From the NCBI RefSeq assembly GCF_000377785.1, contig NZ_KB898728.1, positions 1-64,000 of the forward strand: a stretch of 64,000 nt of DNA, given 5' to 3'. The notes under the pieces were generated by a model. The model was not told the DNA's origin. It did no database searches and saw only the letters and a program-made list of their open reading frames with translations. Origin of the DNA: Thioalkalivibrio sp. ALJ24. GTDB taxonomy: Bacteria > Pseudomonadota > Gammaproteobacteria > Ectothiorhodospirales > Ectothiorhodospiraceae. This document shows, piece after piece, positions 1,621 through 8,415 of the stretch. A program made the position numbers and the translations under genes. Numbering within the stretch: position 1 is the first letter of the stretch; every line of letters begins with the position of its first letter.

Positions 1621-1805
1621 TCTACCTTGACAGATAGCGCGAGACCTGTCACTTCACTTGGCGTCACCCAAGGGATATCCCCTCCCCAGCAACTGGGGTT
1701 ATTTCGACTTGGGGTGCCGCCGCTTATAACCTCTCCAACTTCTTTAATAGGAAGGGTGCTCCAGTCACTCGGCAATTCCGTGAGCAGCTGCTGGTAATCA
1801 GACAT
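1621..1805 (-). pseudogene. hsdS: Type I restriction specificity subunit HsdS, 5' fragment cut by IS3
   Basis: HsdS recognises the target sequence for the HsdM/HsdR complex. ATG at 1805 overlaps the hsdM stop codon by 8 bp, the usual translational coupling of hsdM and hsdS. About 61 residues remain: a lead-in (LLTELPSDWSTLPIKEVGEV) followed by the hallmark start of the first target-recognition domain (SGGTPSRNNPSCWGGDIPWVTP). The frame runs into the right end of the IS at 1620 and stops within a few codons. The rest of hsdS is not on the other side of the IS within the bases shown. Without both recognition domains the methylase should lack specificity. Confidence 0.85.
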
Positions 1806-4218
1806 ACCCCAACCCCTCCAGATACTGCTGCAGCTCCCTGGCGGCGGCATCGCGCTCGGCTTCGATGTCGGCCAGCGTCACCCGGTACTTGTCCCACCAG
1901 GTCTCGAAGGCGGCGATGACCTGCTGGCGCTGCTGGGGGATGTGGCGTTCGAGGATGGCCTTGAGGTCATTGTGGAGGATGTTGCCCACGAGCTCGGCGG
2001 CGGCGGGCTCGTCCAGGGCGTCCACGGCGTTGTTCAGGTGCGTCTCGAAGCTGGCCACCTTGGCCTTGTGCCGCTTCTTCACCTGGGTGCGTTCGCTCTT
2101 CCACGCCTTGATCTCAGCCGGGGTCGGGGCGTCCTCGTCCTCGCTGGTGGCTTCGGCCTCGGCGTCGTCGTCGCCTTCGGGTTTGGCCTCGGCGGCCTTG
2201 ATGCGGGCGTCCAGCTCGGCCTTGCGGGCGGCCAGTTCTTCGAGTTCGGCCACGTAGTCCTGCAGCAGGAAGTGCACCAGGCGGTGGTCCAGCGGGCTGG
2301 TCTTGTTCTGGTCGTCTTCCAGCTGGCTGATGATGGTGGTGCGCCAGGCGTCCACCACGCCGAGGCAGCCGCGGGTTTGCAGGGTGCGGAATTCGTTCTT
2401 GTTGTCGAACCAGAACCCGGCGATGATGCCGCGTACCGCGAAGCGATCGAGCATGCCGGTGGGCTCCAGGGCGGCGGAGAAGCTGCCCAGCAGCTCGTCG
2501 CGCAGCTGGGTCAGGCGGCCGCCGTTGCCGGAGAGCGCGGTGATGCTGGCGCCGTGCTCCGTCCACCAGGCCTCGAAGGCGGCCAGCACGTGGGCCTCGC
2601 GTTCCTGCAGGCCGGTGTCGGCCTCGATGGCGGGCTTGAGATCGCGCTTCTCGTTCAGATGTTCGGCAAAGTCCACGTAGTCGGGATCGTCCGGCCGGGG
2701 CGTGAACAGGTGCATCGGGTCGAGGCCCTGGGCGTCGAACAGGGGGCGCCGGTCCTCGATCTCCTTCACCGGCACGCCGCCCTTGAGGTGGGCGCGCACG
2801 TCCTGGGGCTCGGGCGGCGGGGTGTTGTCGGCGTAGCGGCGGATGTTCAGGTTGTAGTCGTTCTCGCGCAGCTCCTCCAGCGGCACCACGCGGGCAAAGC
2901 CGGGCACGTCTTCGAAGGCATCCCAGGTGCTGACGATCTTCTCGATGTGCTCCGGCAGCAGGTGGTTCTGGGCGCGGCCCTCGTGGTATTCGCGGTCGGC
3001 GTTGATGAACAGCACGCGGCCCCGGCGCTCCTCGGGCTTGGCGCCCCTGGCGCGCAGCACCAGGATGCTGGCCGGGATGCCGGTGCCGTAGAACAGGTTG
3101 GGCGCCAGGCCGATCACCGCCTCCACCAGGTCGTCTTCCAGCAGGCCGGCGCGGATGCGCTTCTCGTCGCCGCCGCGGAACAGCACGCCGTGGGGCATGA
3201 CGGTGGCGATGCGGCCGTTGGCGTTCAGGCTGGCGACCATGTGCTGCAGGAACATCAGGTCGGCCTTCTTGGCGCCCTCGGGCACGCTGCCGTAGTGGAA
3301 GCGCTCCGGGAAGTGCGGGCTGGGCGTGTAGCCGATGGAGAACGGCGGGTTGGTGAGGATGCGGTCGAAGCGCTTGAGCTCGCCGCCCTCGACGTGCTGC
3401 GGGTCGGTGAGGGTGTCCTCGTTGCGCAGGTCGGCGCTGCTGATCCCGTGCAGCAGCATGTTCATCTTGGCGATGGCCCAGACCGAGCCGGAGGCCTCCT
3501 GCCCGAACAGGTTGAGCTTGCGCGAGTCGCCGCCCTGCTCTTCCAGGTTCTCCTTGGACAGGATCAGCATCCCGCCCGAGCCCATGCAGGGGTCGTAGAC
3601 GCTGTGGCCCTCCTGCGGATCCATCAGCCGCACCATCATGCGGACCACCGGGCGCGGGGTGTAGAACTCGCCGCCCTTCTTGCCGGCGGAGTCGGCGAAG
3701 TCGCGGATCAGGTACTCGTAGGCCGCCCCCAGCAGGACGGGGAACTCGAAGTCCTCGTTGCGCAGGCGGTACTCGCTGAAGTGGACAATCAGGTCGCGCA
3801 GTTTCTTGTCCGGCAGCTTGGTGGGGCCCACCTGGCGGGTAAAGTCGATGTGCTCCAGCACCCCGGCCAGGCTGGGGTTGTGCTCTTCCAGCCCGGCCAG
3901 CGCCTTGTTCAGTTCGTTGCCCACGCCTTGGTGGGCCTCGTTCAGCAGGTACTCCCAGCGCGCCCTGGGCGGCACGTAGAAGTCCGCCTTGTACCAGCTG
4001 GGCATCTCGACGAGCTTCGCGATCTCTTCCTCGCTCTTGCCGCTGGCGCGCAGGTTGTCGCGCACCTCTTCCCGCCGCTGCTCGAACACGTCCGAGCAGC
4101 GTTTCAGGAACAGCATGCCGAAGATGTACTCCTTGAACTCCGAGGCGTCCATGCGCCCGCGGAGGATGTCCGCCGCCGCGAACAGGTGCCGTTCGAGCTG
4201 GTTCAGGGTGAGGATCAT
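1798..4218 (-). CDS. hsdM: Type I restriction-modification methyltransferase subunit HsdM
   Basis: N6-adenine DNA methyltransferase of a type I restriction-modification system, working as an HsdM2S complex. The HsdM N-terminal helical domain covers about residues 5-150. The catalytic domain follows, with the SAM-binding motif DPCMGSGG at 209-216 and the NPPF catalytic motif at 290-293. At 806 residues it is much longer than the classical 500-530. The extra C-terminal third is charged and predicted coiled coil (acidic low-complexity stretch near residues 685-715), as in the long HsdM class. The next gene, hsdS, is broken by an IS. No hsdR is visible in the window, so the locus is incomplete or continues beyond the left edge. 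Start ATG at 4218 is the only good in-frame choice. Confidence 0.93.
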
Positions 4219-4530: not shown

Positions 4531-5193
4531 TCACGCGATGGCCTCGATCAGTGCCGGATCATCCTCGGCGGGCCGGTTCACCCGGGTGGACACCGGGTGA
4601 TATCGAAGCGCGTCCGGGTGCAGGCGCTGCGTCCGTGCCCGGATCACTTCCCGTTCGGAGAGTGCCGGGTCCAGCCAGTCCCAGCGGCAGGCCGCATCCA
4701 GCACCAGGGGCTTGCGCTCGTGAATGTGCGCCAGACGGTCCGATGCGGGTTCGGTGATGATGGCGCAGCAGGCGCCGCCGTCGGCGGTGGGTTCCCAGAT
4801 CCCCGCCATCATCAGCACGTCCTGCGGCGCATCTTCGGCCAGGGTGATGTAGTACGGCTGCTTGCCCTGCTCCGTCCGCCGCCACTCGTACCAGCCGTCG
4901 GCCAGCACGATGCAGCGGCGATGCGCGAACGCCGAGCGGAAATACGGACTGGTGGCCACCTTCTCGGCCCGCGCGTTGATGGGCCGGGGGCCCTCCTCCA
5001 CCCGTTGCGGACGAAAGCCCCAGAACATCGGCTGGAAGGCGGCCCGTCCATCGTCGCCCGCACGGAACCCTTCCAGCTCCGTCCCCGGCGCGACGTTGTA
5101 CCGCGGTGCGTCGAAACCCGCATCGACCGGCACCTGGAAATAGCGCATGGCCAGCTCGCTGGTCGCGCTGTAACGCGTCATTCGTCCGCACAT
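4531..5193 (-). CDS. SRAP-domain protein (YedK/HMCES family), abasic-site DNA-protein crosslinker
   Basis: SRAP proteins shield abasic sites in single-stranded DNA by forming a thiazolidine crosslink through Cys2 after removal of Met1. The 220-residue length is normal for the family. Visible hallmarks are MCGR at the N-terminus (Cys2), RYNVAP around Asn33, PINARAE near residues 71-77, the GWYEW motif with Glu103, and IHER-KP with His158 in the position of the family histidine. These are the residues known to matter in E. coli YedK. It lies between hsdM and an integrase operon, inside what I take to be a genomic island, so it is probably an accessory copy. Its promoter would be at 5194-5300, next to the terminator of the upstream gene. 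Confidence 0.93.
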   Translation of the reverse strand: MCGRMTRYSATSELAMRYFQVPVDAGFDAPRYNVAPGTELEGFRAGDDGRAAFQPMFWGFRPQRVEEGPRPINARAEKVATSPYFRSAFAHRRCIVLADGWYEWRRTEQGKQPYYITLAEDAPQDVLMMAGIWEPTADGGACCAIITEPASDRLAHIHERKPLVLDAACRWDWLDPALSEREVIRARTQRLHPDALRYHPVSTRVNRPAEDDPALIEAIA

Positions 5194-5302
5194 GAAGCCA
5201 GCATGCCACGAGATCCGCGCGAGCCGTACGGGATGGCGGTCGCTTCCCCCTTGCGCCCGGGATCCTCATGCGAAGCCGCATCTCCGGAGTTTTCGATTAC
5301 CC

Positions 5303-5329
5303 AAAAGAAAAAGCGGGGACCTGCCCCGC
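5303..5329 (-). terminator. Rho-independent terminator after the integrase/HD operon
   Basis: GCGGGG (5313-5318) and CCCCGC (5324-5329) form a 6-bp GC stem with a 5-nt loop. On the minus strand it is followed by TTTTTCTTTT (5312-5303). It sits 15 bp after the stop of the HD-domain gene, closing the three-gene leftward operon. Confidence 0.85.
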
Positions 5330-5344
5330 CTTTTCCGCTCAACG

Positions 5345-6313
5345 TCATGCACGCCCCAGCCGACCGGGTGGCCGCTCGGGATCCCTCGGCGACAACCACA
5401 CAGGACGCCCGCCGCAGAGTCGATGCCAGTATCCGTTGCGGCGCGCCTGAAGTGCCTGCGCCGCAACATCGGCGTGGGCGCTACACTGATCGAGGCCCCG
5501 CACCAGGGCCGCCATGGGCGCGCCGTAGTCGTCACCACTGCGATAGGCATCAATCACCCGCCACAGCGCGTCATGGGCGTCCCGATCCCGGTGCCGCAGC
5601 GTGGCCATCGGCTCCTGCAGATAGTAGTCAATCAGGCGCTCGTGGCGCTTTTCCGGAATACGGTGCGCATCCGGAGTGACGCATTTGCCGACATCATGGA
5701 ACAGCGCGAGAAGGATGCCGGCTTCCCGGGAATAAAGGTCCAGACTCATAGTGTCCGTGGCGGCCATCACCCCCTCGGCCACCTCCAGGCTATGGGCCAG
5801 CAAACCACCCGGCTCCCGGTGATGACAGTCCCCGGAGGCCCGGCCCGTCACAAAACTCAGGGTGAACGCCGGATCACCAAAGACGGTGCACAGGAAGTCT
5901 CGGTAGGCCTCGACCCTCAAGCTTTCCGCGAGCCGTACGAGTCGACCGAGATCTTCCGGGCAAGGCGCTCGATGAACGGGCAGCAGCTCCAGCGCATCCC
6001 GTTCACACGGCCGGTTGCCGTACAGGGGATGCGCCACCAGCACCCGTTCCCCGCGCGGATTGACGGCTGTGTGCAGGGAAACATCCCGATGCTGCCCGTT
6101 CACTAGACCGTGCCCGTCCCAGTCGCGGCGCAGGCCGTACGCCCGCGCGCTCCCCGTCGTGTCATACAGCTGGAAGCGGAAGACCCGTTCGCCCGAAGAT
6201 GCGACCCCCTCGTTCTCCACTTCCACGCGCGCCGACAACTCAACGGGCTCCGGACACGCCATGTCTTCGAAGTCCCGCATCCGCAGAACCTGTTCCACCG
6301 TTTCAGCCTTCAT
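5345..6313 (-). CDS. HD-domain phosphohydrolase/nuclease-like protein with N-terminal OB-like region
   Basis: 322 residues. The C-terminal half is an HD domain: His164/His165 in CHHREPGG, His174 in LLAHSLEVAEG, then the signature HD pair at 206-207 in LFHDVGK, with further acidic and histidine residues to about 280. The layout HHREPGGLLAHSLEV...LFHDVGK resembles TraI_2-type and YhaM-type HD proteins. Residues 20-95 look beta-rich and could be an OB-fold, as in YhaM 3'-5' exonucleases, but this is inference. The start overlaps the integrase stop by 11 bp, so it is translated with the recombinase. A terminator follows. Likely activity is metal-dependent hydrolysis of a nucleotide or of nucleic acid ends; the substrate is unknown. 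Confidence 0.8.
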   Translation of the reverse strand: MKAETVEQVLRMRDFEDMACPEPVELSARVEVENEGVASSGERVFRFQLYDTTGSARAYGLRRDWDGHGLVNGQHRDVSLHTAVNPRGERVLVAHPLYGNRPCERDALELLPVHRAPCPEDLGRLVRLAESLRVEAYRDFLCTVFGDPAFTLSFVTGRASGDCHHREPGGLLAHSLEVAEGVMAATDTMSLDLYSREAGILLALFHDVGKCVTPDAHRIPEKRHERLIDYYLQEPMATLRHRDRDAHDALWRVIDAYRSGDDYGAPMAALVRGLDQCSAHADVAAQALQARRNGYWHRLCGGRPVWLSPRDPERPPGRLGRA

Positions 6314-7544
6314 CCCGGACCTCCTTGCCCTCGTTGTCGGTCTCTCCGTGGAAACGCGCGCGCAACAGACGGTCCATCGCCGAACCGTCCTGGCGCGTCA
6401 GGTTGGGCACGTATCGCGAATAGACCCGAAAGAGCATTTCCGTGTTGGTATGGCCCAGCTGCCGCGCGATCCACTCGGGGTTCTCCCCGGCCGCCAGCCA
6501 CAATGTGGCGGCGGTGTGCCGGCACTGGTAGGGCTGACGTAACGCCAGCCCCAGATGGCGGAGCAGCGGATACCAGACCCGTTCGGCCACGTTCTTGGTA
6601 TCCAGTGGCTGCCCGTTCGCCGTGTGGAAGACGTAGTCGCTGCGACCGGTCGCCTCACGCTGTGCCCGCAGGGCATCGGCGACCACTGAGGACATCATGA
6701 CGTCCCGCTGCGAGCCATCGGTCTTCGTGTACTCCGTCCTCCCCCGGTTATAGGTTTCGCGCACCAGGATGAGGCCGTTGTCGAAATCCACGTGGCGCCA
6801 CTTGAGGCCATGCACTTCCCCGGTACGCAGCCCGGTGAAGAAGCGGACCACGAAGTAGTTCCGGTAATCGGGCCGCACGTGCTCGAGGATCCGCTGGACC
6901 TCATCCCAGCTGAACGGCTGAATCTCCCGCTTGGGCTGCTTCAGCCTTTTCAGGTTCTGCAGCGGGAACGTAAACTGGAAACGGTCAGCGGCCTCGGCGA
7001 GCACCATCGACAGCACCCCAAGGGTGTGGTTGATGGTCTTGGGCGAGAGCGTAGCGTTGCCCTTCCGGCCGGGGACTTTGGCGAGTGTCGACCGGAATGC
7101 AAGAACGTCCGCCTTGCTGATGTCGCTGACCTTCCAGTCACCGAACTGGGGGATCAGGTGTCGTCTGAGAGCGCTTCGATTGCTCTCGAGCGTCTTGAAG
7201 CGCCAGAGCACCTCGTTCTCCTGGAGCCACTGCTCCGCGAAATCGCGGAACAGTGGAACATCCGACTCGGGCTCGCTTGCCTCCGCCTCGGCTTCGGCTT
7301 CAGGGGCCCGTTCCAGGGCCTCGAACTCCTTAAGCCGACGGCTCTGCGGAAAATACTCGCGGTAGGCGAAGGTGCCGAGGGTCATCTCGGCATCCATCTT
7401 CTTCGCCACCTTCTCCATCTTCCGCCGGTTGGCCGGGGTGTTCGGCAACGAGCTGTATTCCCTGCACCGTCGTCCCTTGTAGAAAAAGTCGAAATAGAGC
7501 TTACCCGTCTCTTTACGTTCACGGACCTTAACCATGGCAGGCAC
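6303..7544 (-). CDS. Tyrosine recombinase / integrase
   Basis: Site-specific recombinase of 413 residues. N-terminal arm-binding region (residues 1-80, including DFFYKGRRCREY), core-binding SAM-like domain (about 110-215) and C-terminal catalytic domain. Catalytic landmarks are the first Arg in TGLRTGE, Arg-His in YQCRHTAAT, and the nucleophilic Tyr in LFRVYSRYVPN. The usual His three residues before the second Arg is replaced by Tyr. It is the middle gene of a three-gene operon: its start overlaps the upstream HTH gene by 17 bp and its end overlaps the HD gene by 11 bp. The gene points away from the tRNA-Arg 3' end 800 bp to the right, the standard arrangement for a tRNA-targeting island integrase. 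Confidence 0.93.
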   Translation of the reverse strand: MPAMVKVRERKETGKLYFDFFYKGRRCREYSSLPNTPANRRKMEKVAKKMDAEMTLGTFAYREYFPQSRRLKEFEALERAPEAEAEAEASEPESDVPLFRDFAEQWLQENEVLWRFKTLESNRSALRRHLIPQFGDWKVSDISKADVLAFRSTLAKVPGRKGNATLSPKTINHTLGVLSMVLAEAADRFQFTFPLQNLKRLKQPKREIQPFSWDEVQRILEHVRPDYRNYFVVRFFTGLRTGEVHGLKWRHVDFDNGLILVRETYNRGRTEYTKTDGSQRDVMMSSVVADALRAQREATGRSDYVFHTANGQPLDTKNVAERVWYPLLRHLGLALRQPYQCRHTAATLWLAAGENPEWIARQLGHTNTEMLFRVYSRYVPNLTRQDGSAMDRLLRARFHGETDNEGKEVRDEG

Positions 7545-7767
7545 CCCCTCCCGCCATCGGGATCGTCAGGTCGTCGTCTTCGGCCGCCATGCCGGTCATA
7601 TCCCTTTCGATGGTCTCCCAGATGTACAGGATCTTCCGGCCGCCGAACGGCCGGATGTAGTGGATCCCTTCAATGAGCACGCTGTCTTTCAGACTGTCCC
7701 GGATCGTGCGGGGGGTGTACTGGATCCGTTCGGCCAGTCCTTCAGTGGTCAGGTAGGTGTACCCCAT
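7528..7767 (-). CDS. Small helix-turn-helix protein upstream of integrase (excisionase-like)
   Basis: 79 residues from ATG at 7767, chosen because GGAGGAAG stands 5 bp upstream. A longer in-frame start at 7863 has no such site and would run through the operator region. The protein begins with an HTH of the AlpA/MerR-like class (YLTTEGLAERIQYTPRTIRDSL), followed by a wing-like stretch (IHYIRPFGGRKILYIWETIERDM). Position and size fit a recombination directionality factor or excisionase. The 17-bp overlap with the integrase gene means the two are made together. Which way it biases recombination, or whether it also represses its own promoter, cannot be read from the sequence. Confidence 0.78.
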   Translation of the reverse strand: MGYTYLTTEGLAERIQYTPRTIRDSLKDSVLIEGIHYIRPFGGRKILYIWETIERDMTGMAAEDDDLTIPMAGGGACHG

Positions 7768-7805
7768 GTATCCTTCCTCCGTATCAATGAAACATTCAAG
7801 TTTCG

Positions 7806-7861
7806 TGTGTAGCCTGTGCGCTTCACACAACTCCGACTCTACACAAAAAATGTAGCCTGTC
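7806..7861. promoter_or_regulatory. Divergent operator region between the excisionase-like gene and the Cro/C1-like regulator
   Basis: An AT-richer gap (7768-7887) separates two divergent regulators. It holds a 10-bp direct repeat TGTAGCCTGT at 7808-7817 and 7851-7860. It also holds an inverted repeat CTACA (7839-7843) against TGTAG (7851-7855) across an AT-rich spacer. The pattern fits operators for the XRE-type protein or the HTH protein, controlling both promoters. No -35/-10 pair is assigned. Confidence 0.6.
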
Positions 7862-7887
7862 AACTACGTTTGATGCCTGGGGTGTAC

Positions 7888-8136
7888 ATGGCGATCCGAA
7901 TCCGGCTTAAAGAGCTCGTCGCGGAGAAGGAGTACCGGGAAGGGCGAGTCGTGACGATGAAGGAGATCTCCACGCAAACGGGGATCCATCGCGTCACGCT
8001 TTCAAAGATTGCGCATAACCGTGCGCAGAACGTCGGCACCGAGACGATCGACCGGCTGTGCAAGTTTTTCGGGTGCCGTATCGAGGAACTACTGGAATTC
8101 GTTGACGACGAGAATCGAGAAGGGGATACGGACTGA
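7888..8136 (+). CDS. Cro/C1-type (XRE) helix-turn-helix regulator
   Basis: 82 residues from ATG 7888, preceded by TGGGGTG; an alternative ATG at 7873 is in frame. The whole protein is one HTH domain (VTMKEISTQTGIHRVTLSKIAHNRAQNVGTETIDRL) with the C-terminal cap CKFFGCRIEELLEFVDDE typical of short HTH_26-type regulators. It is transcribed divergently from the excisionase-integrase-HD operon across a repeat-bearing gap, so it is probably the repressor that keeps the island integrated. There is no sensor or peptidase domain, so derepression by RecA-type self-cleavage is not expected. Confidence 0.85.
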   Translation: MAIRIRLKELVAEKEYREGRVVTMKEISTQTGIHRVTLSKIAHNRAQNVGTETIDRLCKFFGCRIEELLEFVDDENREGDTD

Positions 8137-8338: not shown

Positions 8339-8415
8339 TGGCGCGCCCGGGAGGATTCGAACCTCCGACCGCCTGGTTCGTAGCCAGGTACTCTATCCAG
8401 CTGAGCTACGGGCGC
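8339..8415 (-). tRNA. tRNA-Arg (anticodon ACG)
   Basis: 77 nt on the minus strand. The acceptor stem GCGCCCG pairs with CGGGCGC, with discriminator G and an encoded CCA at 8341-8339. The anticodon arm CTGGCTACGAACCAG presents ACG in the loop, so it reads CGU (and CGC/CGA if A34 becomes inosine). The T-arm has the GGTTCGAATC core. The gene is intact even though it is the probable attachment site of the neighbouring island, so the integrated element restores its 3' end. Confidence 0.97.

Follow-up and report, generated by a model that had tools for sequence, protein, structure and literature searches.

The window, that is, the whole 64,000-nucleotide stretch of Thioalkalivibrio sp. ALJ24 DNA under analysis, carries the mobility module of a defence island integrated at a tRNA-Arg gene. 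The module consists of an Xre regulator, a small HTH protein, an arm-domain integrase and a protein with an OB and an HD domain (Table 1). The three minus-strand genes of the original prediction (HTH, recombinase and HD) are genuine, but the three-gene module described there is larger than supposed: it also includes the Xre regulator, which is encoded divergently, and in many cases a small gene is inserted between the integrase gene (int) and the OB-HD gene (hd).

Table 1 Features of the mobility module and its surroundings in the window
Feature	Position	Strand	Basis
OB-HD protein gene hd (P0001), 322 aa, distant YhaM homologue; OB at about residues 20–100, HD at about 112–290	5345..6313	-	ORF, profile, predicted model
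Tyrosine recombinase gene int (P0002), Arm-DNA-bind_2 and Phage_integrase; likely start ATG at 7535	6303..7544	-	Pfam
Gene of 79-aa HTH-like protein, candidate excisionase/directionality factor	7528..7767	-	Homologue in the same place in 8 of 8 other genus loci
Divergent regulator of Xre/Cro-C1 type, read from an internal ATG (ORF 7816–8136)	7890..8136	+	Homologues in 7 of 8 other genus loci
Divergent promoter region, direct repeats and promoter-like sites on both strands	7801..7863		Site scan
Intrinsic terminator-like hairpin 3' of hd	5290..5344	-	Folding; not among the entries of a consensus terminator scan of the region
tRNA-Arg(acg), target gene; anticodon loop to 3' end forms the att repeat	8339..8415	-	tRNA and repeat search
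Gene of presumed SRAP-type protein, adjoining hd	4531..5193	-	ORF
Type I restriction-modification methyltransferase, island cargo	1798..4218	-	PADLOC MTase_I, 1202.6 bits

The int and hd genes overlap by 11 bp in the window, as had been claimed, and an ATG stands at the equivalent -11 position of hd in five relatives (L011, L013, L014, L015 and L074); int and hd of the A. caviae locus L116 overlap by 4 bp. In contrast, the 17-bp overlap claimed for the HTH gene and int is obtained only from an upstream GTG at 7544; the conserved ATG at 7535 gives 8 bp, which matches the 8-bp overlap of L011, L013 and L015. A Shine-Dalgarno-like AAGGAGGT, read from the sequence, is located within int five bases 5' of the hd start, so that strict translational coupling to int need not hold and hd may be translated independently. 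Co-translation in a fixed ratio, as originally proposed, is thus not obligatory. The shared terminator at the end of the module was borne out, as the hd stop codon is followed by a hairpin with a U-run (folded stretch 5290–5348, -21.8 kcal/mol, z -2.3, 4 of 200 shuffles equal or better). The Xre-type regulator, a Pfam-based assignment, is encoded on the plus strand and diverges from the HTH gene, int and hd, and two direct repeats, TGTAGCCTGT, at 7808–7817 and 7851–7860 separate it from the HTH gene. The integrase scores above the gathering thresholds of PF12167 (Arm-DNA-bind_2, formerly DUF3596; 77.4 bits) and PF00589 (69.5 bits). The HTH protein shows only a weak excisionase match against PHROG (E 0.13), and its predicted model is unreliable (pLDDT 51).

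Because the window begins at a contig end, only part of the island is in view. The exact 21-bp att core is present on two contigs of the window's genome (G000:C5:8343-8363 and C10:50522-50542), and two att copies are 58.8 kb apart on one contig of the relative G001. In L122, L123 and L128, the flank outside the distal att copy contains, within about 100 bp, a further stretch resembling a tRNA 3' end in inverted orientation (ggattcgaacctccg), which possibly arose from tandem insertions. Ten cargo proteins were selected for a PADLOC scan, two of them encoded in the window and eight in five further islands. Nine gave a match; the best models were those of type I and type IIG restriction-modification, DrmD, ZacB/ZacC and BREX (PglZ, BrxL). 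The protein encoded next to hd, which we take to be of the SRAP type (YedK/HMCES-like), matched no PADLOC model. At 19–1850, transposase-like ORFs (IS3-type by reading) stand beside a short hsdS-like ORF (1611–1850), so that the type I specificity gene may be interrupted.

Searches with the single P0001 sequence give weak matches, to the Pfam HD domain at E 0.00068 and to TraI_2 at E 0.002; no match to the PDB was found, and none to the YhaM equivalog model NF010007 is listed at E 1. The cut-off of this model is 460 bits, and L112, the best integrase-linked relative tested, scores 29.3 bits. A profile of nine relatives matches the solved YhaM structure 9h3f at E 3.6e-7 over positions 23–218, covering both OB and HD, and a second YhaM/CBF1 structure at E 1.5e-5. 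Profile–profile comparison with four YhaM-like proteins gives E 9e-35 over 275 columns. In the predicted model of P0001 (mean pLDDT 74), five strands at residues 24–96 are followed by helices; together with the YhaM profile match across both domains, they bear out the OB-like N-terminus and HD domain of the original prediction. YhaM is the best structural match to the model (Z 17.3, with 196 residues matched in the HD part), and the next match has Z 9.9. Because the input alignment of the model contained YhaM-like rows, the structural match and the sequence relation are not independent of each other. The N-terminal part of the model matches the OB folds of SSB, RPA and PriB with Z of at most 7.8, a range where chance is possible. 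The metal-ligand residues of the HD domain (H, HD, D) are invariant in a 12-row alignment including YhaM-like proteins, and the HD residues did not turn out to vary among relatives, H174, H206, D207 and D275 being conserved in at least 90% of 24. Judged by these comparisons, P0001 is a distant homologue of YhaM that falls below the YhaM equivalog cut-off.

YhaM is a Mn2+-dependent 3'-5' exonuclease that forms a hexamer. Of the two activities first considered for the HD protein, phosphohydrolase and nuclease, the kinship with YhaM points to a nuclease rather than to a hydrolase of nucleotide signals. The HD superfamily includes nucleotide-signal and dNTP hydrolases, and SAMHD1 and phosphodiesterases are among the lower structural matches of the P0001 model. 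However, their Z does not exceed 9.2 compared with 17.3 for YhaM, and the OB domain points to a nucleic acid substrate, so that a nucleotide-signal or dNTP hydrolase seems most improbable.

The HD protein could also be a nickase related to MobH, which would cut the origin of the island for mobilisation by a conjugative helper and serve as the small relaxase of an integrative mobilisable element. MobH relaxases are described, in the part of the source available, as HD hydrolases with 3H and HD motifs (PMC12857230). The HD motif region of P0001 matches the MobH model NF041494 at E 1.4e-6 and that of the L112 protein at E 3e-11, and L012, L018 and the A. caviae protein L116 have HHH. However, P0001 scores 27.5 bits against a cut-off of 200, has CHH instead of the HHH that is invariant in ten aligned MobH-type proteins (alignment A4), and lacks the long C-terminal part of MobH. 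Furthermore, profile–profile alignment with ten MobH proteins (E 7.6e-15 over 153 columns) is confined to the HD domain, whereas that with YhaM spans nearly the whole protein. We regard such a nickase as rather unlikely.

Relatives of the HD protein were collected within Pseudomonadota by three genome searches, which gave 28 short HD loci: nine in 58 related genomes, nine more in 369 genomes of the class and a further ten in 398 genomes of the phylum. Excluded before counting were 13 long frames from the 369-genome search that were taken as MobH-type (ten aligned, one scored by NCBIfam, and L031 and L037 assigned by frame length alone) and L004, a 26-aa fragment with a stop; the Aeromonas media plasmid protein L117 and A. 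caviae L116 stand outside the count. A same-clade integrase is located directly upstream of the HD gene in 20 of the 28 loci, in some of them with a small gene between. Two others (L100 and L102) abut an unrelated XerD-like tyrosine recombinase (Phage_integrase E 1.9e-17 for L100); the recombinases of these cases, in genomes G436 and G408, are 96% identical and represent one lineage, and no further HD loci turned up when 78 genomes from that class were searched. Four loci are at contig ends (L021, L026, L086 and L089), and the remaining two have no integrase: L041 has kept its Xre neighbour, and the HD motif of L042 is degenerate. The plasmid protein L117, likewise away from an integrase, adjoins a helicase gene and ssb/umuDC. 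Thus, homologues are not found mostly away from recombinases, 22 of the 24 assessable loci (28 in total) adjoining one. In the examined flanks of the controls, an integrase-profile match was found at none of 13 MobH-type, four standalone YhaM-like and 20 viral HD loci. The HD gene as a chance neighbour was rejected in view of this linkage survey and its controls.

In L100 (6304-13264) and L102 (2211-9183), the HD gene abuts the gene of a 288-aa XerD-like recombinase, which stands next to the genes of two larger proteins, one of 763 aa that has a recombinase domain at its C terminus and one of 777 aa without a name. The arrangement is reminiscent of GInt/SE elements. The HD relative at L098:7770-8714 has a degenerate HD motif (RD for HD), and no integrase was found nearby.

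Within the genus, hd follows the integrase gene at all nine loci, a tRNA-Arg, -Val or -Met gene is close by, and the integrases of the other eight loci are 51–75% identical to P0002. The reverse survey started from 15 clade integrase loci (E 1e-90, 369 genomes), nine of which are followed by an HD gene, including three from the window's genome. The other six have none, indicating that integration as such does not need the HD protein. An insensitive pattern scan of the genome collection found no relative with P0001 and at least six loci with alignment A1; among the matches listed, one (L045, treated as the same locus as in G001:C1) has an integrase. In tblastn searches, P0001 hit one plasmid record and no phage record, and the L112 protein hit 23 plasmid records, most of them annotated as MobH, and three phage records. 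The integrase P0002 matched three plasmid records at strict limits and no phage record at E 1e-50. As far as gene order and homology tell, the recurrent pairing of int and hd suggests that the HD protein is an overlooked partner of island integrases.

A fixed position in an island could also be held by a defence or counter-defence gene that protects the host or the island and lies beside int only through the conserved island end. The islands bear restriction-modification and BREX-type genes, and the available part of a report on deoxydinucleases in genomic islands of Gram-positive bacteria indicates that other island nucleases are suspected of a role in immunity (PMC11706625). Nevertheless, P0001 had no meaningful match among the PADLOC defence families, the one hit being Cas3 HD at E 0.012, and the overlap with int recurs in divergent elements, unlike interchangeable cargo. 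A defence function is thus very unlikely.

Of the six integrase loci that lack HD, four encode a small protein of about 95 aa directly after int. It is located at L103:5968-6255, L104:5527-5892, L105:390-668 and L106:7408-7707, where L103–L106 are longer versions of L075–L078. A profile of the four proteins also finds L095 (855-1199), L094, L110 (6921-7202), L115 and L086, in which the small protein precedes HD, and a protein of the Acinetobacter lwoffii plasmid pALWED3.4 (L118:7175-7423). An ORF occupies the equivalent position in L016 and L017, its homology being mainly positional (profile E 0.03–0.05). A Pfam search of the small protein returned no named family.

The hd gene is under purifying selection, with dN/dS of 0.12–0.23 over seven pairs; int gives 0.08–0.43 for the same pairs. 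The divergence of the integrase correlates with that of the HD protein over 17 loci (r 0.82, p 1e-4), but it drops to r 0.23 once only integrase pairs with a distance above 0.4 are considered. The HTH protein and the integrase of the window are 78% and 76% identical to those of L013, another tRNA-Arg locus, and 42% and 53% identical to those of L011, a tRNA-Val locus of the window's own genome. The HD protein shows the reverse order, being 50% identical to that of L013 and 68% to that of L011. These mosaic identities indicate that hd can move from one island to another even where the integrases differ, which argues for a general function. Because the HD gene is shared by islands whose integrases use different tRNA targets, and adjoins an unrelated recombinase in one lineage, this function should concern DNA mobilised by recombinases in general, irrespective of the particular att sequence. 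A block of hd and the SRAP gene is common to the window (4531–6313) and L011 (8293-10073), the second island of the same genome, although their integrases differ; the SRAP protein of the window is 94.5% identical to the copy beside hd of L011.

Taken together, the OB-HD protein is, on balance, probably a YhaM-type nuclease that works alongside the integrase in the mobility cycle of the element, with either DNA or the int transcript as its substrate. It would be made together with the integrase, degrade single-stranded nucleic acid as a Mn2+-dependent 3'-5' exonuclease, and act on single-stranded or nicked DNA, or on a transcript, that arises during excision, replication or integration of the island. 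More tentatively, and with less than an even chance of being right, a dedicated OB-HD nuclease, often accompanied by the small protein, may be a regular part of the recombination module that acts on single-stranded DNA during excision, element replication or integration.

The best-known role of YhaM is RNA turnover, and a role on RNA is therefore equally compatible with the fold. The HD protein might then be a regulator that acts on the 3' end of the int-hd transcript or of other element RNA, by trimming or degradation, and thereby limits the integrase dose. The YhaM proteins that have been characterised work on the 3' ends of mRNA, according to the accessible part of PMC11347170, and hd is the last gene of the operon, ahead of a strong terminator hairpin. 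However, there is no visible reason why a private RNA exonuclease should be present in island integrase operons only, and this regulator is unlikely to be the explanation.

For many genomic islands, the integrase is the sole identifying feature, and their mode of movement is often unclear. A partner gene that is conserved, under selection and overlapping, and whose enzyme fold can be tested, provides a direct handle on island mobility. If the HD partner is needed, tyrosine-recombinase islands use a nuclease step that is missing from current models, and if the module does include a dedicated nuclease, site-specific recombination would here take a nuclease-assisted form. If instead the HD protein controls the int transcript, it would represent a new form of integrase dose control.

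Each protein family of the module is already known; the open-licence literature searched, in the parts available, contains no description of a conserved operon of an island integrase and an OB-HD protein. The window protein resembles the YhaM/CBF1 3'-5' exoribonuclease (NF010007; PDB 9h3f, 9o7t) in its N-terminal OB and C-terminal HD domains, in the HH...H...HD...D motif, in its similar length (about 310–320 aa) and in its best structural match. The B. subtilis YhaM breaks down ssRNA, ssDNA and nanoRNA in the presence of Mn2+, as stated in the portion of the paper at hand (PMC11347170). However, the window protein is far below the equivalog cut-off and belongs to an integrase operon, whereas none of the four standalone YhaM-like genes is near an integrase. 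With the MobH relaxase (TraI_2, NF041494) it shares the HD motif GGLLxHSLE...HDxGK. In contrast, the MobH-type loci are mostly frames of 590–773 aa, none of the 13 has an integrase within 1.5 kb, and the OB part of the window protein does not align with MobH, its score lying below the cut-off. The recombinase resembles the DUF3596 recombinases of the IntBPP-1 subgroup, which carries the PF12167 arm domain (PMC8138268, in part), in having this arm, the catalytic domain and a small HTH gene upstream, as with an excisionase. Those are phage integrases, with no nuclease-like partner mentioned in the part of PMC8138268 available, whereas the window integrase has no phage record at the limit given above. 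Operons of SE elements with accessory proteins represent a related idea, as far as the available portions of PMC10214605 and PMC9345347 go. Although their accessory genes are tfp and srap, with no HD domain named in that portion of PMC10214605, and the window element has one integrase, it shares with SE elements an overlapping operon of recombinase and accessory genes, for which translational coupling has been proposed in the SE case (PMC10214605).
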